Positions 4,874 through 26,662 of a DNA stretch of 40,408 bases are shown here, piece after piece. The DNA lies in NCBI GenBank assembly GCA_947588805.1, contig CANPYR010000020.1, positions 1-40,408 on the forward strand, read 5' to 3'. Numbering within the stretch: position 1 is the first letter of the stretch; every line of letters starts with the position of its first letter. This DNA comes from an uncultured Clostridia bacterium (GTDB lineage: Bacteria > Bacillota > Clostridia > Oscillospirales > Ruminococcaceae). The position numbers were made by a program, and so were the translations under genes. Below the pieces are notes generated by a model. That model made no database searches, was not told where the DNA came from, and saw nothing but the letters and a program-made list of their open reading frames with translations.

Positions 4874-5314
4874 TTATTCGTCTTGGGATTCTCTCTCGGC
4901 CTTTTTTCTTCTGTAGTCGAGATATCCTTCCAAAATTAAAGTCGCCGCGACGGTATCTATCACGTCTTTGCGTTTTTTGCCCCTGACGTTTGTTTCGTTC
5001 AAAATCCCTATCGCCTGGACCGTCGTCACCCTTTCATCCCATAATACGGTCGGGACCCCGGTCTCGGCTTCGAGTCTTTTCGCAAGCTCCTCGCAGAGCT
5101 TCGCTCTCGGGCCCTTACTTCCGTCCATGTTTACAGGATGACCGACGACTATAAGCTCGGCCCCGATCTCGGATATCTTTTCCTTTATTTTTATAAAGCG
5201 CTTTTCGGGCGATTTTTCAAATAAAGTCCCGAGCGGCGCAGCTATAGATTCCGACCTGTCGCAGTAGGAAAGCCCGGTTCTTGAATCTCCGTAGTCTATC
5301 GCTAAAATCTTCAT
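4874..5314 (-). CDS. ruvX: RuvX/YqgF-family RNase H-fold nuclease (putative pre-16S rRNA nuclease)
   Basis: A 146-residue protein of the YqgF family, which has an RNase H fold and is implicated in 5' maturation of 16S rRNA; older annotations call it a Holliday junction resolvase homologue. The opening KILAIDYGDSRTG carries the first catalytic Asp (residue 7). VVGHPVNMDGS, LWDERVTT and RKDVIDTVAA follow in the family order and supply the remaining acidic residues. The ATG at 5314 has an AGGGA ribosome site. The preceding LURP-one-like gene ends 15 bases upstream and spoIIR follows, so these may be one transcript. Length is normal for the family. Confidence 0.9.
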   Translation of the reverse strand: MKILAIDYGDSRTGLSYCDRSESIAAPLGTLFEKSPEKRFIKIKEKISEIGAELIVVGHPVNMDGSKGPRAKLCEELAKRLEAETGVPTVLWDERVTTVQAIGILNETNVRGKKRKDVIDTVAATLILEGYLDYRRKKAERESQDE

Positions 5315-5329
5315 ATCTTCATATCCCTA

Positions 5330-5800
5330 TCAGCTTCCTCCGCAGTTCATCATGTCTACGGCTATCGCTATAGTCATACCCAAAAGCTCGTTTGCGGGGC
5401 GAACAGCTTCGAGCAGGTAGGTATCGCCAAGATGAAAGATCTCCTTTGAGATCCTTGCCGCAGTCTCTCCCCTCGCGTCCCTTATCTCATAGTCAAGCCC
5501 CAAAAAGTCCCCTTTTATCTCCCAGCCGTTCGAGAGAGTATATCTCGGCATGAAAAACGTGAATTCCCTCGTCATAAGTATATCTTCCCCCATGACGTGA
5601 AGGTCGGCTTTATGCAAAAACGTAAATATCCGCTCGTCTATCCTTGAAGTCTCGCGACCTGTGGACAGATCGGTTATGTGGATGTGATGGCCGAGAGTCA
5701 AAAATTCCGTATTGACCGCGTACCTCGGCTTGCCCGTATGATCGCAGACCTCGTAGGTATCGGTCAATGTAAAGATCTTCTGGCGTATAAGTAAACTCAT
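5330..5800 (-). CDS. LURP-one-related / tubby-like fold protein
   Basis: A 156-residue protein with a pattern typical of the LURP-one/YxjI family: RQKIFTLTDTYEV at the start, repeated short beta strands, KGDFLGLDYEIRD in the second half, and ISKEIFHLGDTYLLEA leading to an acidic/hydrophobic end. The fold is a 12-stranded barrel shared with tubby C-terminal domains and phospholipid scramblases. In bacteria the role is unknown. The start has a clear AGGTGA ribosome site 6 bases before the ATG. It is on the same strand as ROK kinase, ruvX and spoIIR. Family assignment is fairly confident; function is not known. Confidence 0.8.
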   Translation of the reverse strand: MSLLIRQKIFTLTDTYEVCDHTGKPRYAVNTEFLTLGHHIHITDLSTGRETSRIDERIFTFLHKADLHVMGEDILMTREFTFFMPRYTLSNGWEIKGDFLGLDYEIRDARGETAARISKEIFHLGDTYLLEAVRPANELLGMTIAIAVDMMNCGGS

Positions 5801-5875
5801 ATTTCACCTGCCGGCATTTTAAATTCTGAGCGCGGAATTCGTCCCCCCTAAAAAATTTTTGGCGGGGGTTATTTA

Positions 5876-6823
5876 CTATTTACTTATTCCCAAAAACGCC
5901 GCGCCTATTATTCCGGCTTCGTTTCCGAGCTCCGCTCTCACTATCTTCGTATTCCTCTCGGAACGCTTTGAATATACTTCGTTCTTCACAAGCTCCCTGA
6001 GCGGCGCCATAAGCGCTTCGCCCTCGTTGCATACCCCGCCGCCTATGCATAATATCTCGGGTTGGAAAATATTTATGGTGTTCGTTATCCCAATCGCCAG
6101 GTACTTTATGTATTTATCAACTACTCCCTTCGCCGCCGCGTCCCCTGCGCGCATGGCGTTAAAGGCAAGTCTTCCCGAAACGTGATCCCCCATCATCTCA
6201 TGCATCTTGGACTCGGGGTGCATATCCATCGCTTCCTTGGTCATTCTTATAAGCCCGGTAGCGGATGAATAAACCTCAAAGCAGCCGTGACGGCCGCAGG
6301 TGCATTCCACGCCGTCGGCTTCTATGACGGTATGACCGATCTCGGCTCCGGCGTAATTAAATCCCGAATATATCTTCCCGTCGATTATTATCCCGCCGCC
6401 GACTCCGGTCCCGAGAGTGATGCAGACTGCGTTCTTAGCCCCCCTCGCGGCTCCGGCGACAAATTCACCGTACGCCGCTGCGTTTGCGTCGTTTTCGACA
6501 TACACCGGAAGCCCGAGAATGTCTTTTACATATTTTGCCACGGGCTCGTTATAAAAATCAAGGTTATTTGAGTATTCAATGACTCCCGTATCGCTGTTCA
6601 CCGTCCCGGGGGAGCCGACTCCTACGGACTGAATATCCGCAAGCTTAAGCCCGGCTTCCTCGGCGGCTTTTTTCGCCGTGAGCGCCATGTCCTTACATAT
6701 TTCCTCGCAGGAACGCGGACGGTTTGTAGGAGTCGAAGCCTTTGATATGATCCTGAACTCGGAATCTACTACTCCGGCGGCAATATTCGTCCCGCCGAGG
6801 TCTATACCGATATAATATTTCAT
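5876..6823 (-). CDS. glcK: ROK-family glucokinase
   Basis: A 315-residue cytoplasmic sugar kinase that most likely phosphorylates glucose to glucose-6-phosphate. The phosphate-binding motif GIDLGGTNIAAGVVD is at 6-20, the catalytic END at 110-112 (Asp112), and a Gly-rich TLGTGVGGGI follows at 136-145. The ROK zinc site is complete: His164 in EIGHTVI and Cys174, Cys176 and Cys181 in CTCGRHGC. The end, GAAFLGISK, is also typical. The start has AAAGGGGA upstream and a sigma-A promoter further up. Sugar specificity cannot be proven from sequence; N-acetylmannosamine kinase or fructokinase are alternatives, but the length and zinc motif fit Gram-positive GlcK best. Confidence 0.87.
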   Translation of the reverse strand: MKYYIGIDLGGTNIAAGVVDSEFRIISKASTPTNRPRSCEEICKDMALTAKKAAEEAGLKLADIQSVGVGSPGTVNSDTGVIEYSNNLDFYNEPVAKYVKDILGLPVYVENDANAAAYGEFVAGAARGAKNAVCITLGTGVGGGIIIDGKIYSGFNYAGAEIGHTVIEADGVECTCGRHGCFEVYSSATGLIRMTKEAMDMHPESKMHEMMGDHVSGRLAFNAMRAGDAAAKGVVDKYIKYLAIGITNTINIFQPEILCIGGGVCNEGEALMAPLRELVKNEVYSKRSERNTKIVRAELGNEAGIIGAAFLGISK

Positions 6824-6856
6824 AAATATTCCCCTTTCGCCGGAAAAGATGAATAT

Positions 6857-6885
6857 ATTTTAACACAGGCGTTATAAAAAGTCAA
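6857..6885 (-). promoter_or_regulatory. Sigma-A-type promoter of the ROK kinase gene
   Basis: On the minus strand, TTGACT (plus-strand positions 6880-6885), a 17-bp spacer and TAAAAT (6857-6862) lie about 35 bases upstream of the ATG at 6823. Confidence 0.7.
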
Positions 6886-6899
6886 GGGCGCAAATAGAA

Positions 6900-7047
6900 A
6901 ACAGAATTGAGAAATCAGAAATCAGATCTGATGAATTTACATCTCTGCGTTTCTCCCGCGGCGCTCTTTAACTCCAAGCTCGGCTTTCGCTCCAAACGAC
7001 CTTGATATAGTCTTTCACTTTGCTGCTCCCTTAACTCGCTGCGGAAT
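6900..7047. repeat. Intergenic repeat element, copy 1 (heptad head plus about 120-bp tail)
   Basis: The head (6900-6929) consists of degenerate 7-nt units such as TCAGAAA (CAGAAT, TGAGAAA, TCAGAAA, TCAGATC). The tail contains TCTCTGCGTTTCTCCC, CGGCTTTCGCTCC and GTCTTTCACTTTGCTG in the same order and spacing as a second copy at 26663-26805. Neither copy encodes protein. It fills most of the gap between the ROK kinase and the BlaR1-like operon. Confidence 0.55.
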
Positions 7048-7482
7048 CTATCCCTCTACCCTCGCTTTCCCGTCTTCAAACCTAAGAACCGCTTCCGTCT
7101 CCTCATCTATCGCCGCTTTCTCCCCGTCCTCGGCTATGATCGCAAACTCCCTGATATACGCCGTTCCGTCTTGATCCGTCGTACAGTAAAAGCTGTATTC
7201 TCCGTCTTCAGGAGCGGTAAAGCCGAAAACTGCATGAGCCCTTCCGTTCAGCTTGCATATAAACGGTTCGCCTAAATCGATCTCTGTCCTTCCTACAGCA
7301 GCGGCGGTAATTTTCTTCGCCGTCTCTTCTATGCCTTTATCCCCTCCGAGGTCTATGAATAACGCCGCATTCTCTCCGGATTTCATCTTCGCTCCGGAAT
7401 CTTTTCCGTCCCTTCCGAGCTCGTATACCTGCCCGCCATCGCGATAAATCGCCCCGACGACGTATTTTTCGCCTTTATCCAT
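7048..7482 (-). CDS. Detached sensor-like module in frame with the BlaR1-like gene
   Basis: A 144-codon frame starts with an ATG that directly follows, in the same frame, the TAG stop of the BlaR1-like gene. No ribosome site precedes the ATG. The product has no signal peptide or membrane span. It is homologous to the preceding protein's C-terminal module: LGEPFI (70-75) and FTAPEDGEYSFY (88-99) match LGEPFI (577-582) and FEAPEDGYYFFH (592-603), and SGENAALFIDL matches KGERAALILDF. It can be expressed by readthrough of TAG or by stop-start coupling, or it may be the severed end of a once longer BlaR1-like protein. Without export or linkage a cytoplasmic beta-sandwich domain would make little sense, so readthrough or a recent nonsense mutation is favoured. 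Confidence 0.6.
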   Translation of the reverse strand: MDKGEKYVVGAIYRDGGQVYELGRDGKDSGAKMKSGENAALFIDLGGDKGIEETAKKITAAAVGRTEIDLGEPFICKLNGRAHAVFGFTAPEDGEYSFYCTTDQDGTAYIREFAIIAEDGEKAAIDEETEAVLRFEDGKARVEG

Positions 7483-9510
7483 CTAACCCATGGAGCTTGA
7501 CTTCTGCGCGGCCGCTGTCATCTCCGCAAGCACCTCTTTATCGGGTCTTTCGGGATCGAGAAGTCCCGCCCACTTCTTGCATGACGGGTTGAATTCTTCC
7601 ACGTCAAGCTTGATTTTTCCGAAACGCATCTCTTCACCGCTGTTTTCCGCTTCTACCCAGCGCCCCGGGATGAACGCGGTCGGCGCGGACAGATTTGAAA
7701 CGTGGAAGAAGTAATATCCGTCCTCGGGAGCTTCAAACGGGAAGATAAGGCAGGTCTCGTCATATATGAACGGCTCTCCTAAGCTGTATCTTGTCTGGGG
7801 ACCTCTGCTCGGCTCGCCGGAATCCGTGAAGATTATTTCTTCGCGGATAAATCCTGCTGTCACTGAAAGGTATTCCTCCGGTACCGGCCTTTGAAAATCA
7901 AGGATCAGCGCCGCTCTTTCTCCCTTTTTGAATATCTTTTCGTCCATCTCGGAAACTCCGTCGGTTATAACGTCGTGGACCTGTATCATCGATACTCCGC
8001 TGCATAAAGTCCCCCTGCGGTAGCGAAGATCCTCGTCCGTCGATCCCGCCGCTGCTCCCATGAAGCAGTAAAGCTCGGTATCGGTATGAAGCGGAGCCGT
8101 GATCTCGCTGACGGTCAGAAGCTTTATCGGAAGCTCTCCGTCATAGCTTCCGCTGACATAGAAATTATATTCCCCGTCCTCGGGCGCTGAAAATATCGCG
8201 CAGGCTCTTCCCTTGTCCACTATTACGGTATCGGCGGGATTTTCATCCCCGACTTTAACTATCCCGAGCTCTACCGGAATATAGCGGTAGTCCCCGATAT
8301 CCTCCTGAGCGTAGGTGAAATATACCGACTCGTCCTTTTTAAGATCATAGCTGTCCGGCAATCCGTCGCCGTCGCCGTCAAAATATACCGTCCGGATCTC
8401 GTCCTCTGAAGTCACGGGCTTTTCAGATGCTTTTCCGTCATTATTTTTCTTCGGTTCATAGCTTACGCTCTCCGATTCAAACTTTTCTTCCTCCTTTGGG
8501 ACGGGATTCACGGACGAAGCGATAACCGTCGCGGATACCGTCGCTATAAGAAGCGAAGAGGTAATTATTGATAAAACCGTAGTCTTTTTGAATTTCATAA
8601 TAGATATTATCCTTTCTTCGGTAGAATTTTTTGCAAAGCAGCTGAGTAAAGGCGTACCGAAGCTTCTGCTCTCTTCGATCGCGATAAGAAGCTTAGCGTA
8701 GGAGGACTTTTTGTCCTTTCCGAGCTTTTTTATCACGTCCTCGTCGCAGCGCCCTTCAAGATCCCGCGAATAAAGTCTCCACATCGCCCACGCGAACGGG
8801 TTGAACCAGTGGAGGGATACTGCGGCGGCGAATACGAGCTTTCTTAACGAATCCTTTCTGCGGATATGGCTCAGCTCGTGCTCCAAAATCATTTCAAGCC
8901 TGAAATCCGGAAACCTTTCCCACTCCTTCGGCAAAACTATCACCGGGCGCGCTATTCCGTATGTAAGCGCCGACGGGATTCCGTCAAGCACTCTTACCGA
9001 GATCTTTCCGTTCTCCCCCAAAATCGCTTTTACGGCTTCGCTTTCGCATTCCTTCGCGCGTCTGAGCTTTCTCAGCGTTAAAATATATCCCGCCGTCAAA
9101 AAAGCCGCGGTCAGCGCCGTTCCGGCTATCAGGATCTTCCAAAGAAACGCTTCGGTAATTATTTTAGAAACTTCTTTCTTATCCTCTACAGCCGTATCTC
9201 CGGACTTGATTCGGTCTTTCTGAGACGCCGGCTTAAATTCCGTAGGCTCCGAAGCGCTGTAAATAAACGTCTCGGACGACGTTTGGGCGTATGCGGAAAA
9301 ATCCTCGCCGGAAATTATTTGCTCAGGCTCGGTCTGCGCGGGAAGTATAGGAAGATCGAAGGAGACGGGAAGAACGAATCTTAAAAGCGCTATCTCCCAG
9401 AGTATCACAAAGCAGCTTTTTGGAAGCCTTGTCCTGAAAATCGTCCGAAATACCGTTATTACGGCCACCGCGAGCGCCCCGTACAAAGTCGTTTCAACAA
9501 AAATTCCCAT
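7483..9510 (-). CDS. BlaR1-like M56 membrane metallopeptidase with repeated beta-rich sensor modules
   Basis: A 675-residue antirepressor. Hydrophobic segments lie near 5-25, 33-50 and 122-145, the cytoplasmic zinc protease carries HELSH (211-215) with a downstream LEGRCDE segment holding further acidic residues, and a last span sits at about 308-332. Instead of the penicillin-binding sensor of true BlaR1/MecR1, the outside part begins with a DGDGDGLPDSYD calcium-type loop (378-389) and contains at least two related modules marked by APEDGEYNFYVS (442-453) and APEDGYYFFHVS (594-605). It follows the BlaI-type gene by 10 bases and has GAGGAAAA before the ATG. The family model is that signal binding triggers proteolysis of the BlaI-type repressor. 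The ligand is unknown and no beta-lactamase gene is nearby. Confidence 0.82.
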   Translation of the reverse strand: MGIFVETTLYGALAVAVITVFRTIFRTRLPKSCFVILWEIALLRFVLPVSFDLPILPAQTEPEQIISGEDFSAYAQTSSETFIYSASEPTEFKPASQKDRIKSGDTAVEDKKEVSKIITEAFLWKILIAGTALTAAFLTAGYILTLRKLRRAKECESEAVKAILGENGKISVRVLDGIPSALTYGIARPVIVLPKEWERFPDFRLEMILEHELSHIRRKDSLRKLVFAAAVSLHWFNPFAWAMWRLYSRDLEGRCDEDVIKKLGKDKKSSYAKLLIAIEESRSFGTPLLSCFAKNSTEERIISIMKFKKTTVLSIITSSLLIATVSATVIASSVNPVPKEEEKFESESVSYEPKKNNDGKASEKPVTSEDEIRTVYFDGDGDGLPDSYDLKKDESVYFTYAQEDIGDYRYIPVELGIVKVGDENPADTVIVDKGRACAIFSAPEDGEYNFYVSGSYDGELPIKLLTVSEITAPLHTDTELYCFMGAAAGSTDEDLRYRRGTLCSGVSMIQVHDVITDGVSEMDEKIFKKGERAALILDFQRPVPEEYLSVTAGFIREEIIFTDSGEPSRGPQTRYSLGEPFIYDETCLIFPFEAPEDGYYFFHVSNLSAPTAFIPGRWVEAENSGEEMRFGKIKLDVEEFNPSCKKWAGLLDPERPDKEVLAEMTAAAQKSSSMG

Positions 9511-9520
9511 ATTATTTTCC

Positions 9521-9883
9521 TCAGTCTTCGATCTCGTTCACAAGCTCTTTGAGCCTTTGGATCTCCTCATGCGAGAGCTTTTTTGAGCCGATAAGAGCCG
9601 CGAAAAGCTTGTCGGTCGAGCCGTCGAATATCTTATCCAAAAGCTCGCTCGCTTCGGCCTGTCTTACCTCTTCTCTCCCTATAAGCGCCCGGCACATGAA
9701 GTTAGGCTCGGTCCTTTCGATCGCGCCCTTTTCAATGCACTTCTTAATGACCGTGTATGTTGTGTTGACGTTCCACCCTACGCTTTCGCCAAGCTTCTTC
9801 GCTATCTCCTTAGCGGTCAGAGTTCCGCAGTCCCACAGCACGTTCATCACCTTGAGCTCGGAATCAAAAATCTTGATTTTCAT
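9521..9883 (-). CDS. BlaI/MecI/CopY-family repressor
   Basis: A 120-residue winged-helix repressor. I start it at the ATG at 9883, which has AAGGAG 11 bases upstream; the longer open frame to 10075 crosses the promoter and operators and is not used. The translation opens KIFDSELKVMNVLWD, followed by LTAKEIAKKLGESVGWNVNTTYTVIKKCIEKGAI, which is the typical BlaI DNA-binding helix and wing, and ends with a short dimerisation helix. It lies 10 bases before the M56 gene, so the two form a classic sensor-repressor pair. Two inverted repeats in its promoter are likely its own operators. The target genes beyond this operon are unknown. Confidence 0.88.
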   Translation of the reverse strand: MKIKIFDSELKVMNVLWDCGTLTAKEIAKKLGESVGWNVNTTYTVIKKCIEKGAIERTEPNFMCRALIGREEVRQAEASELLDKIFDGSTDKLFAALIGSKKLSHEEIQRLKELVNEIED

Positions 9884-9919
9884 ATAAATAAACACTCCTT
9901 TTTTCGGCATGAAGCCTAA

Positions 9920-9970
9920 ACTATTGCAATAGTATAAGATTATACTATCACAATAGTATGGATTTGTCAA
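9920..9970 (-). promoter_or_regulatory. Promoter with two operator dyads for the BlaI/M56 operon
   Basis: On the minus strand, TTGACA (9965-9970) and TAGTAT (9942-9947) are 17 bp apart. One dyad, ATACTAT-N4-ATAGTAT (9942-9959), covers the -10 and spacer. A second, fully palindromic ACTATTGCAATAGT (9920-9933), covers the region around the start point. Their centres are 24 bp apart and both share the ACTAT/ATAGT core, as expected for two repressor dimers. Operator function is inferred from position and symmetry. Confidence 0.72.
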
Positions 9971-10008
9971 GGGATTTTTAAAAAATTTAAGAAATATTTT
10001 TTGCATGC

Positions 10009-10037
10009 AAAAAAGTGCGGCCGAATCCGACCGCACT
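10009..10037 (-). terminator. Intrinsic terminator downstream of htpG
   Basis: AGTGCGG (10014-10020) pairs with CCGCACT (10031-10037). Reading leftward the stem is followed by six T residues (AAAAAA at 10009-10014 on the plus strand). It separates htpG from the BlaI/M56 operon. Confidence 0.8.
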
Positions 10038-10078
10038 GCGTTAAAAAGACGTAAATCAGATTTTTTCGGAGCCATGAA

Positions 10079-10122
10079 TCTTATGCCGCGAATTATCCGA
10101 AGGGTCCGAATAACGCATAAGA
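10079..10122. repeat. Long interrupted inverted repeat after the htpG stop
   Basis: TCTTATGC (10079-10086) and GCATAAGA (10115-10122) form an 8-bp outer stem. Inside, TTAT/ATAA and further short pairs continue the helix with mismatches. It lies between the htpG stop and the terminator and has no T-run of its own. Confidence 0.4.
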
Positions 10123-10150
10123 TATATGCTACCGAATGATTTTTCCGCTT

Positions 10151-12028
10151 TTATACCATAAGCTCCGAGACGAGAGATGTGAATTCCTCCGCGTCCTCGA
10201 TCTCAAGCCCGGAAAGAAGTCTTGCCTGAGCGTAGAGGAGCTTGCAGTATTTTTTGCACTTTTCTTTATCGCTTTCATAGAGCGCTTTTATCTTCTCGGT
10301 GACGGCGTGGGAAGAATTTATTTCAAGTACCAGAGAAGCCTTGAGACCTTCTCCCGCGTCAGGCATCTTTGAAAGGACCCTCGCCATCTCTATCGACATG
10401 CCGCCCTCGCTTGAAAGCGCCGCGGGGTGGCCGCCGAGGGTGTTTGAAAACTTAACGGAATTAAGACCTCCCACCGACTCCTTGATGAAATCCAAAAGCT
10501 CTTTTCCGGATTCGTTCTCCTTTTCAAGCTTCTTGTTTTCATCCTCTGTCGCAAGATCGAGCTCGTCCGTAGAAACGTTCACGAATTTCTTGTCTTCATA
10601 GTTCATAAGAGTCTGGAGGGTGAATTCGTCTATATCCTCCGAAAGAAGAAGTATCTCATAACCCTTTTCCTTTACCGCTGCAGCCTGCGGAAGTCTCAGG
10701 GCCTTTTCGGGCGTATCGCCGCAGGCGTAATAGATCGACTTCTGACCTTCCGGCATCCTCCCGACGTATTCTTTAAGAGTTACGTATTTCATCTCATTTG
10801 AGGATATGAACATTATAAGATCCTGTAAAAGCTCCTTATGAGCGCCGTAGTCGGAGTATACTCCGTATTTGAGCTGAGAGCCGAACGCTTTGAAGAAGGT
10901 CTCGTATTTCTCCCTGTCGGTCTCCATCAGCTTAGCAAGCTCGTTCTTTATCTTTTTCTCTACCGCCTTTGCGATGGTCCTGAGCTGGTAGTCCTGCTGG
11001 AGAGTCTCGCGGGAGATATTAAGGGATATATCGGAGCTGTCTATCAGTCCCTTTACGAAGCTGAAGTAGTCCGGGAGCATATCCGCGCAGCGATCCATTA
11101 TCATTACACCGCTCGAATAGAGAGTAAGTCCCTTTTCATAGCTCTTTGAATAGTAGTCGAAGGGAGCGTGGGAAGGTATAAATAGAAGCGCGGTATATTC
11201 TACGGTCCCCTCCTGCTTATAGTGAAGCGTTTTGAGCGGAGCTTCATAGTCGTAATATTTTGAGCTGTAGAAGTTCTTATACTCCTCCTCGGTCACTTCC
11301 GAAGCGGGCTTTTTCCAGATCGGGGTGATGGAATTGAGAGTGCGGCGTTCTATAACCTTTTCGGTCTTGCCGCTGTCTCCCTCTACGGGCTTTTCGGTCT
11401 CGAAATCCATCCGTATCGGGTAGTGGATGTAGTCGGAGTATTTTTTGACCAGCCTTTGGAGCGAATACTGATCGAGATATTCGCAGTAGTCCTCTTCCTC
11501 GGTATCCGGCTTTATATGCAAAACTATCTCGGTACCGACCGTCTCTTTTTCGCATTCCTCAAGAGTATACCCGTCTACGCCTTCGGATTCCCATCTGTAG
11601 GCCTTGTCCGCTCCGTATACCTTAGAAGTCACCGTAACCTTGTCCGCTACCATGAACGCGGAATAGAATCCCACGCCGAACTGCCCGATTATATCCACGG
11701 TATCGCTGTTGTTCTCGGTCTTGAAATCCTGAGAGCCGCTCTTAGCGATGGTGCCGAGATTATTCTCAAGCTCCTGAGCGCTCATCCCGCAGCCGTTGTC
11801 GCTTACGGTGAGAGTGCCCGCGTCCTTATCGACCGAAAGAGAGATCTCATATTCCTCTCTCGGAAGCCCGGATTCGGTATCGGTAAGGGAGCGGAAATAT
11901 CTCTTGTCGATAGCGTCGCTCGCGTTAGATATCAGCTCGCGCAGAAAAATCTCCCTGTGGGTATAGATCGAATTGATCATCATATCCAGAAGCTTTTTTG
12001 ATTCCGTCTGAAACTGTCTTTTTTCCAT
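10151..12028 (-). CDS. htpG: Molecular chaperone HtpG (bacterial Hsp90)
   Basis: A 625-residue cytoplasmic Hsp90 dimer that remodels client proteins using ATP. The start is taken at the ATG at 12028 (MEKRQFQTESKKLL), which has AAGGAG upstream; an upstream extension in the same frame runs through the promoter. The N-terminal ATPase pocket is complete: ELISNASDAIDK, VSDNGCGMS and GQFGVGFYSAFMVADKV. The middle domain includes LNISRETLQQD, and the C-terminal dimerisation domain ends TSLVSELMV. Length equals that of E. coli HtpG. A separate promoter and a terminator mark it as monocistronic. No HrcA CIRCE element was seen. Confidence 0.95.
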   Translation of the reverse strand: MEKRQFQTESKKLLDMMINSIYTHREIFLRELISNASDAIDKRYFRSLTDTESGLPREEYEISLSVDKDAGTLTVSDNGCGMSAQELENNLGTIAKSGSQDFKTENNSDTVDIIGQFGVGFYSAFMVADKVTVTSKVYGADKAYRWESEGVDGYTLEECEKETVGTEIVLHIKPDTEEEDYCEYLDQYSLQRLVKKYSDYIHYPIRMDFETEKPVEGDSGKTEKVIERRTLNSITPIWKKPASEVTEEEYKNFYSSKYYDYEAPLKTLHYKQEGTVEYTALLFIPSHAPFDYYSKSYEKGLTLYSSGVMIMDRCADMLPDYFSFVKGLIDSSDISLNISRETLQQDYQLRTIAKAVEKKIKNELAKLMETDREKYETFFKAFGSQLKYGVYSDYGAHKELLQDLIMFISSNEMKYVTLKEYVGRMPEGQKSIYYACGDTPEKALRLPQAAAVKEKGYEILLLSEDIDEFTLQTLMNYEDKKFVNVSTDELDLATEDENKKLEKENESGKELLDFIKESVGGLNSVKFSNTLGGHPAALSSEGGMSIEMARVLSKMPDAGEGLKASLVLEINSSHAVTEKIKALYESDKEKCKKYCKLLYAQARLLSGLEIEDAEEFTSLVSELMV

Positions 12029-12078
12029 TGATATATATCTCCTTTTAAAAAGTATTGACAAATTTGCGTATACTATAT

Positions 12079-12106
12079 ATTTTACCACGGAATTCTGAAA
12101 AATCAA
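12079..12106 (-). promoter_or_regulatory. Probable promoter of htpG
   Basis: On the minus strand TTGATT (12101-12106), a 16-bp spacer and TAAAAT (12079-12084) lie about 50 bases before the ATG. The spacing is slightly short, so confidence is moderate. Confidence 0.5.
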
Positions 12107-12304
12107 GAGCTACTTAAAAAGAATTATAAAAACCGCGCTTTTTTCGGCGAATTTTAAAAAAATCTCCCCGCTCACCTCGGTTATTCTCCGCATTCTGCTT
12201 TTTTGCCTTCCTCGCGTATTTGCACTTTTTCGGCGGGGATTGAATAATATATAGTGAGTCACGGACAAAAATCCCGACTTTAATACTTATACAGGAGGAT
12301 CTAT

Positions 12305-13081
12305 ATGGCAGAATTTGCTACCAACCCCTACGGCTTCAAGGAAGCGGTAACGGTCCAGGCCGAGAGAATTTTCGACAGCTGCTCCGACCGTGACTGTCTT
12401 GAAGATTTAGAGGTTGTTTTCCCGGATTTTGAATCCAACCGGCTCGTAAACGAAGCCGCCTACGCCAAGGCCCGCTGCTGCGAGGTCACGAGCGCCTATT
12501 TCTCCATCGAGCCCATACAGTTCAACAAGGGCTTCTATTCGGTGGACATTACTTACACCTTCAGCATCGAAGCGGAGCTTATGGCGAGCGCTTCACAGAC
12601 CGTTCCCTCGAATATTGTTAAGGGCACGGCTTCCTTCACCAAGAAGGTAATTCTCTACGGCTCGGAGGGCGGTACTAAGCTCTTCACCTCCTCCGAAAAC
12701 GGTTCGGTATCCCAAAACGGCTGCTGCTACAACAACCCGCCGAGGGCTACGGTAGCCGTCGCGGACCCGATAGTCTTAGGACTTCGGCTCGTCACCATCC
12801 CCGCATACTCGGCCTGCACCGACGCTACCTGCGATACTGCCGTCACCGTTCCTTCAAGAAAGGTGATATGCTGCACCCTCGGGATGTTCTCAGTAGTATC
12901 GCTTTCAAGAAGCGTGCCGGTAATGCTTCCGGCCTTTGACTATGAGATCCCGTCAAAGGAATGCACGTCGAACACCGAAAGCCCCTGCGAGCTTTTCGAC
13001 AAGATAAGCTTTCCGACTTCGGAATTCTATCCCAAGGGACTTGAAGAGCAGAAAACCTCGGGAGATAAGAACAACTGCTGA
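12305..13081 (+). CDS. Cysteine-rich 258-residue protein, candidate spore-envelope protein
   Basis: An ATG with a perfect AGGAGG site opens a 258-residue frame. It has no signal peptide or membrane span. It holds 13 cysteines, including three CC pairs, a DSCSDRDCLEDLEV block near residue 24 and a C-terminal NNC. The middle is beta-rich (YSVDITYTFSIEAE). I recall related conserved proteins in sporulating Clostridia, and the high cysteine content resembles self-assembling exosporium proteins such as CsxA, but I cannot prove that identity. A TGAATA at 12241-12246 with GGACAAAAAT 17 bases on loosely resembles a forespore sigma promoter; this is weak. A strong terminator follows. The gene is certain; the function is not. 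Confidence 0.7.
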   Translation: MAEFATNPYGFKEAVTVQAERIFDSCSDRDCLEDLEVVFPDFESNRLVNEAAYAKARCCEVTSAYFSIEPIQFNKGFYSVDITYTFSIEAELMASASQTVPSNIVKGTASFTKKVILYGSEGGTKLFTSSENGSVSQNGCCYNNPPRATVAVADPIVLGLRLVTIPAYSACTDATCDTAVTVPSRKVICCTLGMFSVVSLSRSVPVMLPAFDYEIPSKECTSNTESPCELFDKISFPTSEFYPKGLEEQKTSGDKNNC

Positions 13082-13482: not shown

Positions 13483-16400
13483 TCACTCCGCAAGCTTTTT
13501 CGCGCGCTCGGTGAGTTTTTTATATCTTTCCTCGTTTCTTGCAGGATCGAACCATTCCCAGCCCTTTACCGCTGTCATAGCGCTGTAGATAATGCCGCTG
13601 TCCGAGATCCAGCCGTCTATCGATCCGCTTGCGTTTATTTCGCGCCGCGATCCGTCGGGAAGCTCGATCACCGATTCTCCCTTTATGTATACGATATTCC
13701 CGAACACCGCTTCGTCTCCGAAGCTCAGCTTCTCGCCCTCGGGTATCGCTTTCCACTTCTCGGCGTAGTCAAGCGCGAGCTCCAGGTACTTATACCCCTC
13801 TTCCTTTTCGCCGCCGCCTATGAGCGCTACCGCCGACAAAAGGCAGGTCCTTGACGCTCTTGCATAGAACGCCGGAGCGATAACGCCGTTTCCGGCGGCT
13901 TCCATAAGCCTGAGATTGTATAAGAATCTCTTAGCCCTTGTTACTGCGTCCCGGAAGAAGTGATGGCCCTTCGTCATCTGATGAAGAAGAATATTTATCG
14001 CGTTGCAGCTTCCCTCAAGATTCGCTTCGTCATATTTTTCGAGACTGTCAAGGCGCTCCTCCTCCATCTCTCCCATAATGGAACCGTAGAGCGTGATCTT
14101 CTTCGGCTTATATCTTATGCCGGTCTTATCCGCAAAAATTACATTCTTTCCAACGCTGTCCTTTGCGTATACATATTCTGTCGCGCCCACATATCCGTCG
14201 GTTAGGCCGAGGTCCTCGTAACGCCGTCTCATGCCCTCTTCTATCGGCATATAGCCTTCTCCGACGCCTTCGTAATCCGTCAGCTCGTATGCGCTCTTTA
14301 TTCCGGATTTAGAATATATCTCCGCCTTCACAAGCCCGACTCCCGGGGCGAAGTAATATACTCTTCTTCCGTTTCGGTATTCCTGACCCCACTCGAATCC
14401 CTCGCAGAAGGTATCTACCGACAGACAGTTTTCAAAGCTTCCGGCTTTTACCTCTACCGTTCCCGCGTCCTCGCATTTTATCTTTGTCTTAAGAACGCAG
14501 TCGTAAAGGTCAAACGTTTTCTCGGCGCTGTAGCCCGGCTTCCACTGCTCGTCAAAAAGACATTCCGTAACGTCGTTTAAGATCCAGTAGATGTGGTTTG
14601 AAAGAAGTCGGTCGCAGAGCGCAGTGCCGTCGTAGCCCTTCCACTCAAACGAGAATCTTGAACCGCCCTTTGAAATTCGCGTCTTTCCGTCGGCGTTTTC
14701 AACCTCGATACGCCTGAAGAAGTTCCAAAGACCTATCGCTTCGCTGTTCGGATGATCCGTCTCGATTATTCTCTTCACCACCGAGTATGCGGTCTCGGCA
14801 TGAGCCTTCTCACAGGGCGTTTTTGCAAGCTCTATCGCGCGCTTTGCATATTCTCTTACGTCCTGTATCTTCCACATATTGGATCCTCTATCGACGCAGT
14901 AGTCCGCGCGAGTCTTTAAGATCATATCGAGCCAGGAATTTTCGTCGTATTTTTTCCTTACCGAGCGCACCGTCATGTTAGCGACGGCCTTTTTATTATC
15001 GCAGGACAAAATCTCGATCCTTGTCGGAGATACGTAGGCTTCGGGATTCATTTCGATCCCGTATTCCCAGAAGTTACCCTTCTTGATCGGCAAGATCCCT
15101 TCGCCGCCCGCTATTCCGTAGCTTGAAAGAAGTCTCGTTTCCCGTACTCCCTCGGAAATCGCTTCCTGCCTGACAAGCCCTACGCCGCTCTTAAGCCAGC
15201 TTCTGTAAGTGCAATCCCTGAGCCGAGAGGTCCATACTTCGCAGCCGATAAAATTCCCCGCCGGGACGGTTACCGTCTCGCAGTCGGCTTCAAAGGTAAG
15301 TGTCGAGCCGTCGGAGGCGGTGAAGCTCTCCCCCGGCTTTATATCCGCTCTCATCATCCCGTCGCAGCACATGAGATTGTTAAGAAGATAATTAGCACCC
15401 CAGTTATAACCGTAAAGTTCGCCGAAGGAAACTGATTTGCTGTCGGAAATTTTTATTCCGTCCGCAAGACTTATCTCATATGTCACAGATACGTTCATGC
15501 GGTTTTGGTTATCGTTGACAAACTCATCCGTAACCGATTCCTCAAAGCACTTTTTTGCGCATAAGGCATGATGGTAGTGTATCCCGTCCGAAGGCGTTAC
15601 AAGCTTTATCGCCGCGTTGAAGGCTTCAAGAGCGTCCTTCGGTTTTTTCTCTGCGTTTATCCCGTAAGCTATCCATCTTTCCGAGACGGTCAGCCTGAAA
15701 TCCTCGGGATCAAGAGACGGTATCTGAACGTTCTTTATATGGTTCAGCCTGTCCTCGTCCCAGTACTTATAGCACTCCCGCGCAAGTACATAGGACATAA
15801 CGTCGTTATTTTTTCCGAGTCTTGCGGCCTCCTTGATCCTCTCAAAGAGCTTATCGTTCTTCTCTCCCGGCAGCCACCAGTATCCTCTCATCAGAACGTC
15901 CGCGAGGGCGTGATATTTTTCTCTGCACTCCGGCATGGTATCTATATCCTTTAATACGCTGCCGTAGACCTTCTCGAATCCCGCCTTGGAGTTCCTATAC
16001 TGCCAGTTCTTGACCTCTTCGATCTTCTTATGTATCTTCGTAAGCAGAGTGTCGTTTAATTTTTCATCCATTGAGCATAGCTCCTTTCGCATTTTTCTTC
16101 TGCCGTCATGGAGCTGCGACTTGACCGTTCCGACCGATATCCCCATAAGCTCGGCTATATCCTCCGCGCTGCAATTCTCGTAGTAGTGAAGATATATTAC
16201 CTGCCGGGCCCGGTCGGGAAGCTTCCGCAGTCCCCGGCGCATGAGCCTTGCCTCCTCTTCGCTGAGCAGCATCTGTTCCGGGTCGCCGTCGTCAGAGCAA
16301 AACGAATCGATGTTATCCACGTCGTCAAGACTGAGATAATTCCGGAACCGTACCGCCATATTTTTTGCGCAGTTTTTGGCGATACGTCTTACCCACACTC

Positions 16401-16617
16401 CGAACTTTTCCGGATCGTTAAGACGGTCCAGCTTAAGCCACGCGGCCAAAAAAGCGTCCTGAGCCGCGTCCTCCGCGATATGCGGGTTATGTATCACGGA
16501 ATACGCCGCAGACCTCGCGCTCTTCTCGTGCCGTCTTACCAGCTCGTCGTATGAATTAGGATCTCCCGACAGCGTTAAAAGTACCAGCGTGCTGTCGGAG
16601 CACTGAAGATGAGACAT
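13483..16617 (-). CDS. ECF-type sigma factor with a giant duplicated C-terminal extension
   Basis: A single uninterrupted 1044-codon frame. Residues about 20-90 are a sigma-70 region 2 (AEDAAQDAFLAAWLKLDRL) and about 118-180 a region 4 helix-turn-helix (LPDRARQVIYLHYYE, AELMGISVGTVKSQLH). After residue 185 some 860 residues follow with no membrane span or signal peptide. Two modules of about 275-residue periodicity are visible: VPAGNFIGCE (451), GVGLVRQE (478) and GEGILPIKKGNF (505) correspond to VKAGSFENCL (723), GVGLVKAE (759) and GEGYMPIEEGMR (786). Helical stretches between them look like tetratricopeptide-type regions. The sigma part should bind core RNA polymerase; the extension may sense or inhibit, replacing an anti-sigma factor. 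The ATG has AGGAAG upstream. No separate anti-sigma gene is adjacent. Confidence 0.85.
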   Translation of the reverse strand: MSHLQCSDSTLVLLTLSGDPNSYDELVRRHEKSARSAAYSVIHNPHIAEDAAQDAFLAAWLKLDRLNDPEKFGVWVRRIAKNCAKNMAVRFRNYLSLDDVDNIDSFCSDDGDPEQMLLSEEEARLMRRGLRKLPDRARQVIYLHYYENCSAEDIAELMGISVGTVKSQLHDGRRKMRKELCSMDEKLNDTLLTKIHKKIEEVKNWQYRNSKAGFEKVYGSVLKDIDTMPECREKYHALADVLMRGYWWLPGEKNDKLFERIKEAARLGKNNDVMSYVLARECYKYWDEDRLNHIKNVQIPSLDPEDFRLTVSERWIAYGINAEKKPKDALEAFNAAIKLVTPSDGIHYHHALCAKKCFEESVTDEFVNDNQNRMNVSVTYEISLADGIKISDSKSVSFGELYGYNWGANYLLNNLMCCDGMMRADIKPGESFTASDGSTLTFEADCETVTVPAGNFIGCEVWTSRLRDCTYRSWLKSGVGLVRQEAISEGVRETRLLSSYGIAGGEGILPIKKGNFWEYGIEMNPEAYVSPTRIEILSCDNKKAVANMTVRSVRKKYDENSWLDMILKTRADYCVDRGSNMWKIQDVREYAKRAIELAKTPCEKAHAETAYSVVKRIIETDHPNSEAIGLWNFFRRIEVENADGKTRISKGGSRFSFEWKGYDGTALCDRLLSNHIYWILNDVTECLFDEQWKPGYSAEKTFDLYDCVLKTKIKCEDAGTVEVKAGSFENCLSVDTFCEGFEWGQEYRNGRRVYYFAPGVGLVKAEIYSKSGIKSAYELTDYEGVGEGYMPIEEGMRRRYEDLGLTDGYVGATEYVYAKDSVGKNVIFADKTGIRYKPKKITLYGSIMGEMEEERLDSLEKYDEANLEGSCNAINILLHQMTKGHHFFRDAVTRAKRFLYNLRLMEAAGNGVIAPAFYARASRTCLLSAVALIGGGEKEEGYKYLELALDYAEKWKAIPEGEKLSFGDEAVFGNIVYIKGESVIELPDGSRREINASGSIDGWISDSGIIYSAMTAVKGWEWFDPARNEERYKKLTERAKKLAE

Positions 16618-25271: not shown

Positions 25272-26662
25272 GGTAATGTCAAGTATTTTTCGCAAATTCC
25301 CATAGAATGAAGTAATATTTTTGGATTATCACCCTCGGCATGCCGAGGGACAGTTTAACGCTTTGAAGCGATACCGTGAAATTATTCCGCGGCTTCTTCA
25401 AGATATTTCATGCACAAATATCTTTTGCACCCCCAGTCCTTGCCGGCGACATAGCGCAGCCTCGCGCAAACGAGCATCAGCGCTGAGTTCCCATCAGGAA
25501 ATGCTCCGACCACCTTCGTCCTGCGGCGGATCTCACGATTTAGCCGCTCAATCACATTATTCGTGCGGATTTTCAACCAATGCTGCGACGGAAAATCCAT
25601 ATATGTAAGCGTCTCTTCGACCCCGTCCTCAAGCTTTTTGGAAGCGGCATTCAGCTTCATTTCCCTCAACTTTTCGACGACCTCTCTCGCCTTTTTCCTC
25701 GCGGCTTCTTTGCTTTCTTGGGCATGGATTGCTTTCAACATCATCGTGACTTCCCGAATTCTGTTTCTCGGCACGCTTGACATGATGTTGCGGTAGAAAT
25801 GCACCGTGCAACGCTGGTATTTTGCATCGGGAAAGACCTCGTGCACCGATTCACACATTCCGAGATTCTTATCTCCAACAACCAATTTAACGCCGTCGAG
25901 CCCGCGTGATTTGAGCCATACAAGGAAATTCCGCCAGCTTTCCTTATCTTCTTTCATACCCTCAGCAGCTCCTATCACCTCTCGGTATCCCTCTTCATCA
26001 ACGCCTATTGCAACAAGTATGCTGACATTCTCAAACTCGCCGCCCCAATTCCGCTTAAGGTATATTCCGTCAATGTAGACATACGGATACTTGCAAGACA
26101 GCGATCTTTGCCGCCACTCCTCAATATGCACATATGCCTTTTGATTCAAATCGCTGATGGTGGACGCTGATACCCGACTGCCCCAAAGCGCCTCGCTGAT
26201 GTCCTCAACCCTTCTCACAGAAACTCCTGCAAGATACATCTCAATCAAAGCTTCCTCTACAGAGCTTTCGCGGCGGCGGTATCTTTCGATGATTGCCGTT
26301 TCAAACGGTACTCCTTTGAGCTTAGGCACGGACAGTTTTACATTTCCTGACGTGGTGGTGAGATTTCTCGTATAATGCCCGCTGCGATAGCCTTTTCGGG
26401 CTTCAGAGCGTTCGTATTTGCTCGCTCCGGTCAGTTCTTCGGCTTCACTGTCAAGGAGCTCGTTAAGTGTTTCTTCCACGCTTTTGCGCACCAAATCTTT
26501 CAGTTCGGTCTTGACTGCATCTTCGTTTAATGTTATAATCTTTTCGGACATGTTTCTTACTTCCTCTCGAATGATTTGTGGTTACTTCATTCTACCAGAA
26601 GTGCGGGGACATGTCTACTTTTTGCACCTTTTTTCTTTTTGCGAAAGATATTGTACCTTATC
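25272..26662 (-). mobile_element. IS256-family insertion sequence, complete
   Basis: The element is 1391 bp. Its ends form imperfect 25-bp inverted repeats (25272-25296 and 26638-26662; 19 of 25 match, inner part TTTCGCAAA identical). A perfect 13-bp subterminal inverted repeat, TAGAATGAAGTAA, occurs at 25303-25315 and 26582-26594. It holds one intact transposase gene, and a perfect 18-bp palindrome (25332-25349, CCCTCGGCATGCCGAGGG) after the transposase stop. The exact 8-bp flanking duplication shows a fairly recent simple insertion. It lies between glmM and ftsZ, inside an intergenic repeat. Confidence 0.9.
25382..26551 (-). CDS. IS256-family transposase
   Basis: A 389-residue DDE transposase. 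The Mutator/IS256 core is visible: YPYVYIDGIYLK (first Asp), KLVVGDKNLGM (second Asp), YQRCTVHFYRNIMSSVPR, and NNVIERLNREIRRRTKVVGAFPDGNSALML (catalytic Glu) near the C-terminus. The frame is full length with no stop or frameshift, so the element may be active. The ATG is preceded by AGAGGAAG. The gene opposes no host gene and is on the same strand as its neighbours. Confidence 0.95.
   Translation of the reverse strand: MSEKIITLNEDAVKTELKDLVRKSVEETLNELLDSEAEELTGASKYERSEARKGYRSGHYTRNLTTTSGNVKLSVPKLKGVPFETAIIERYRRRESSVEEALIEMYLAGVSVRRVEDISEALWGSRVSASTISDLNQKAYVHIEEWRQRSLSCKYPYVYIDGIYLKRNWGGEFENVSILVAIGVDEEGYREVIGAAEGMKEDKESWRNFLVWLKSRGLDGVKLVVGDKNLGMCESVHEVFPDAKYQRCTVHFYRNIMSSVPRNRIREVTMMLKAIHAQESKEAARKKAREVVEKLREMKLNAASKKLEDGVEETLTYMDFPSQHWLKIRTNNVIERLNREIRRRTKVVGAFPDGNSALMLVCARLRYVAGKDWGCKRYLCMKYLEEAAE

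Follow-up and report, generated by a model that had tools for sequence, protein, structure and literature searches.

BlaR1 and MecR1 are M56 proteases with a HEXXH motif and membrane segments, and their genes adjoin that of a repressor of the Penicillinase_R family (BlaI or MecI). According to the available part of PMC7593790, the extracellular part of BlaR1 is a class-D beta-lactamase-like sensor for penicillin. In-frame stop codons within otherwise kept bacterial reading frames are described in the available part of a 2021 study (PMC7918605), where they tended to be short-lived on an evolutionary scale. The focus of that part is on stops common to at least two species; the stop described here likewise lies within an otherwise kept frame, but at its site a TAG is known from one genome only.

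The window, i.e. the whole stretch of 40,408 nucleotides that was analysed, belongs to the draft genome of an uncultured Clostridia bacterium (2.0 Mb in 53 contigs, 86% complete). A locus resembling the BlaR1/BlaI and MecR1/MecI pairs was identified in it, with the following features:

9521..9883, minus strand: BlaI/MecI-type repressor gene, 120 aa, first of the pair (PF03965 Penicillinase_R, 83.9 bits, cut-off 22.6)
7483..9510, minus strand: gene for a BlaR1-like M56 sensor-protease, 675 aa, shortened by a TAG (PF05569, 144 bits, cut-off 31)
7483..7485, minus strand: in-frame TAG in the linker before the last module; the three other clade genes have a sense codon here
7048..7482, minus strand: open frame of 144 codons starting with ATG; the ancestral gene's last module, now behind the stop and not an independent gene

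The M56 domain occupies residues 4-303 of the shortened protein, with the HEXXH motif (HELSH) at residue 211, and is followed by a hydrophobic segment at residues 311-334, based on hydropathy. The repressor gene (9883-9521) is directly upstream of the M56 ORF, and both marks of the BlaR1-like M56 family, the HEXXH-bearing M56 domain and the adjoining BlaI-type repressor, were found. The NCBIfam model blaR1_generic scored 86.7 against a cut-off of 400, with only positions 3-328 of its 585 covered. Behind the hydrophobic segment, alignment to intact relatives and a structure model indicate two beta-rich modules and then a linker; the last 295 residues were predicted to be mainly strands (mean pLDDT 60). 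In contrast to BlaR1 (PMC7593790, available part), the extracellular part thus seemingly consists of beta-rich modules, and no C-terminal class-D beta-lactamase-like sensor was matched in Pfam at E 1. The signal therefore need not be a beta-lactam. By analogy with BlaR1 as presented in the same part of that source, a signal sensed by the extracellular part would activate the protease, which in turn would cleave the repressor. Two other observations were made on the minus strand of the window. The product of the gene at 13483-16617 has sigma factor domains of the ECF type at residues 26-178 and, fused to them, about 850 more residues with a DUF3108-like match at 714-777, and a Mutator-family transposase (25382-26551) is located in a division-gene cluster, with glmM and ftsZ on either side (neighbour names assigned by eye).

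The TAG at 7485-7483 closes the M56 ORF (9510-7483), and the very next codon in the same frame is the ATG of the 144-codon ORF, which ends at 7048; the junction is exactly as given in the original prediction. Across 7048-7482 the other two minus-strand frames contain 9 and 6 stops, which, together with homology to M56 modules, argues that the 144-codon frame is not due to chance. That homology, also proposed at the outset, was borne out, and the LGEPFI and APEDG landmarks are present. The translated frame matched the last M56 modules of two relatives, G010 (34% identity over 139 aa, E 1e-15) and G017 (35% over 141, E 2e-17), and a copy on contig C4 of its own genome (33% over 141, E 3e-18); the match to the preceding module of its own gene was weaker (30% over 110 aa, E 5e-6). 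Among 60 genomes (its own and 59 relatives), matches were obtained in five, of which its own, G010 and G017 reached E 7e-17 or better. The matches in the other two, G028 and G015 (the latter 35 aa within a frame of 71 codons), were weak, with E values of about 3e-4, and were not counted as module copies.

In both G010 and G017 the module and the M56 domain are encoded in a single uninterrupted frame, of 887 and 927 codons, respectively. A tree was constructed from all M56 domains of at least 250 residues in the loci then in hand, with identical ones entered once (n=46). The window gene grouped with the G010, G017 and C4 genes with a support of 0.92, and all three of these carry the last module. 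Between AEM and IYxDG the linker aligned by eye without gaps and at equal length in the four genes, so that the TAG occupies one codon column. Comparing this site in close relatives had been suggested as a check: a sense codon was found in all three other clade genes and TAG in none, in paralogues at about 40% identity to the window gene, the low identity being the reason for calling them paralogues. Two of the three, both paralogues, are intact and have a sense codon there, as would be expected if the window gene became a pseudogene by a recent nonsense mutation.

The ancestral state was read from paralogues since no strict orthologue was present among the genomes searched. None was found in the 30 other genomes of the genus, drafts among them, and neither the ROK gene nor a BlaI/M56 pair was located beside htpG in 14 regions, which extended roughly 10 kb downstream, or less where a contig ended, and some 0.5 kb upstream, the htpG locus of G028 being left out. 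A single-protein scan of a genome-contig collection gave no match; the profile scan of this collection returned two contigs equal in length to G017:C6 and G010:C80 and hence not independent. No match was obtained in the viral contigs and plasmids searched, nor at E 0.001 or better in a fold search with a low-confidence model of the module. From 394 genomes of the order, which did not include G010 or G017, the module profile recovered only the two copies of the window's genome.

The second BlaI/M56 pair of this clade in the window's genome is on contig C4 (locus L009, G000:C4:8000-18000, around 5370-5380). Linker and module share one open frame there, with no stop in the linker, but a gap of one base, seen against both G010 and G017, breaks the frame of the gene upstream of the linker. 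The window gene and the C4 gene are the only two members of the sensor clade found in this 86%-complete genome. Between G010 and G017, dN/dS was 0.23 for the module plus linker, 0.15 for the two preceding modules and 0.37 across the M56 part. In the broken C4 copy, the module gave 0.34 and 0.46 against the two intact relatives, a weak hint of relaxation only. In one or both comparisons with the window module, the distance at synonymous sites was saturated.

Three explanations of the junction had been offered: truncation by a recent nonsense mutation, readthrough of the TAG, and restart of translation at TAG-ATG. With a sense codon in all three other clade genes, the first is favoured. Very probably, a recent nonsense mutation truncated the M56 gene, by ordinary gene decay and with no new mode of readthrough. 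A programmed or regulated readthrough of UAG would extend a minority of the sensors by the extra module, and it is consistent with a module that is in the same frame, still open and similar to intact copies, as well as with in-frame stops with dN/dS below 1 reported generally in bacterial genes (PMC7918605, available part). Conservation of the stop among relatives would be expected, but it is absent from all three other clade genes, all of them paralogues. RF1 is present (512.5 bits), and no unusual RNA fold surrounds the TAG (z 0.13 over 203 nt, with 109 of 200 shuffles folding at least as well), nor did any Rfam family reach its gathering score within 5000-12500. For the PylS family the highest scores in the 86%-complete draft were 22.1 and 19.4 bits, where the cut-off is 178; similarly low scores were obtained in 13 of 14 control genomes and a score above the cut-off in one. 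No amber tRNA was found in the same draft by a self-made pattern; of its three matches, two were in tRNA-free loci and the third in a locus that carries tRNA-Gly and tRNA-Arg (anticodon tct). Programmed readthrough, as originally entertained, is thus unsupported and very improbable. Genome-wide recoding of TAG was rejected as well, because RF1 is present and TAG also terminates the ROK gene. An adjacent stop and start, as at this junction, can allow coupled restart, which here would give a separate protein of 144 aa. The original prediction saw no ribosome site at this ATG, and this was borne out: the site there proved to be the weakest of 20 hand-picked starts, at -3.6 kcal/mol against -5.2 to -12.9 for the others, the energies being for pairing to an assumed anti-SD string and with the htpG entry 3 nt off its ATG. 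The 144-aa module is also without a hydrophobic segment for export, and, unjoined, this extracellular-type module would probably remain in the cytoplasm, where it would make little sense. No stand-alone copy of the module was seen among the 60 genomes or in the profile search of the 394; such a gene in relatives, with its own start and signal, had been named as able to overturn the original prediction. The frame in the window has neither a ribosome site of its own nor an export signal. Restart is therefore scarcely to be expected.

The TAG could also be an error of assembly or base calling, the gene of the living strain being intact. This is in keeping with the draft state of the assembly (53 contigs, 86% complete) and with the single-base gap that likewise sets the C4 paralogue apart from its relatives. 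That gap, however, is not in a long homopolymer (longest run four, by eye), and the window genes compared with relatives aligned well wherever the contig contained them: htpG and ROK over their full length, clpC over 778-783 of 785 residues. An error of this kind is accordingly unlikely, though it deserves some weight, and ranks below a recent nonsense mutation; we infer that the base is real. A further reading is that different lesions deprived both clade members of this genome of their last module, that this loss may have been favoured and that the shorter sensors stay in use, perhaps along with traces of the long form made through a leaky UAG. This was considered improbable.

M56 genes are common in the genus, at least one being present in 27 of 31 genomes. 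Their decay was surveyed in 25 M56 genes from six genomes (not a random sample; one was chosen for an already flagged stop). Two genes had no usable DNA past the stop, and M56-type C-terminal homology was detected behind the stop in 8 of the other 23. Five of these eight look broken or like remnants, namely the window gene, C4, G000:C1 (TAA), G017:C27 and G017:C34b, while the homology behind G017:C34a is the C34b copy that follows it. At G000:C5 and G006:C9 the downstream homology resembles a lipoprotein gene in its own right, beginning at a start of its own. In the former (L116, G000:C5:36000-44500), a lipoprotein-like frame homologous to M56 extracellular parts is located downstream of the M56 gene; in the latter (L129, G006:C9:100500-108600, minus strand), a TGA lies inside the M56 domain and a separate lipoprotein-like frame follows. 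In G000:C1 (L117, 130000-138500, minus strand) an M56 frame of 445 codons runs to a TAA and is followed by 103 in-frame codons, about 77 of which match residues 731-804 of the M56 frame of a relative. The stretch before the TAA had no convincing counterpart in that relative, and this is only perhaps another broken or remnant sensor. Breaks in M56 genes elsewhere in the genus are thus by TAA, TGA or changes of frame.

Under recent truncation, the ancestor would have been a single gene whose product, an M56 protease bearing three extracellular modules, worked with the adjoining BlaI-type repressor. Within the linker that joins modules two and three, a nonsense mutation would have ended the gene early in the genome of the window, leaving module three as a relic that is presumably untranslated or barely translated. 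The ATG right behind the TAG would be a coincidence. That all 144 codons of the module are still open agrees with a very recent event, and likewise with some continuing use. The shortened product would keep the protease, the membrane segments and two of the three modules, and may either be working with altered sensing or represent a young pseudogene. An in-frame stop followed by an ATG and a homologous continuation can arise by ordinary decay of a multigene sensor family, and such junctions should be read with caution. The many M56 genes of the genus, some of them broken, provide material for the turnover of sensing parts.
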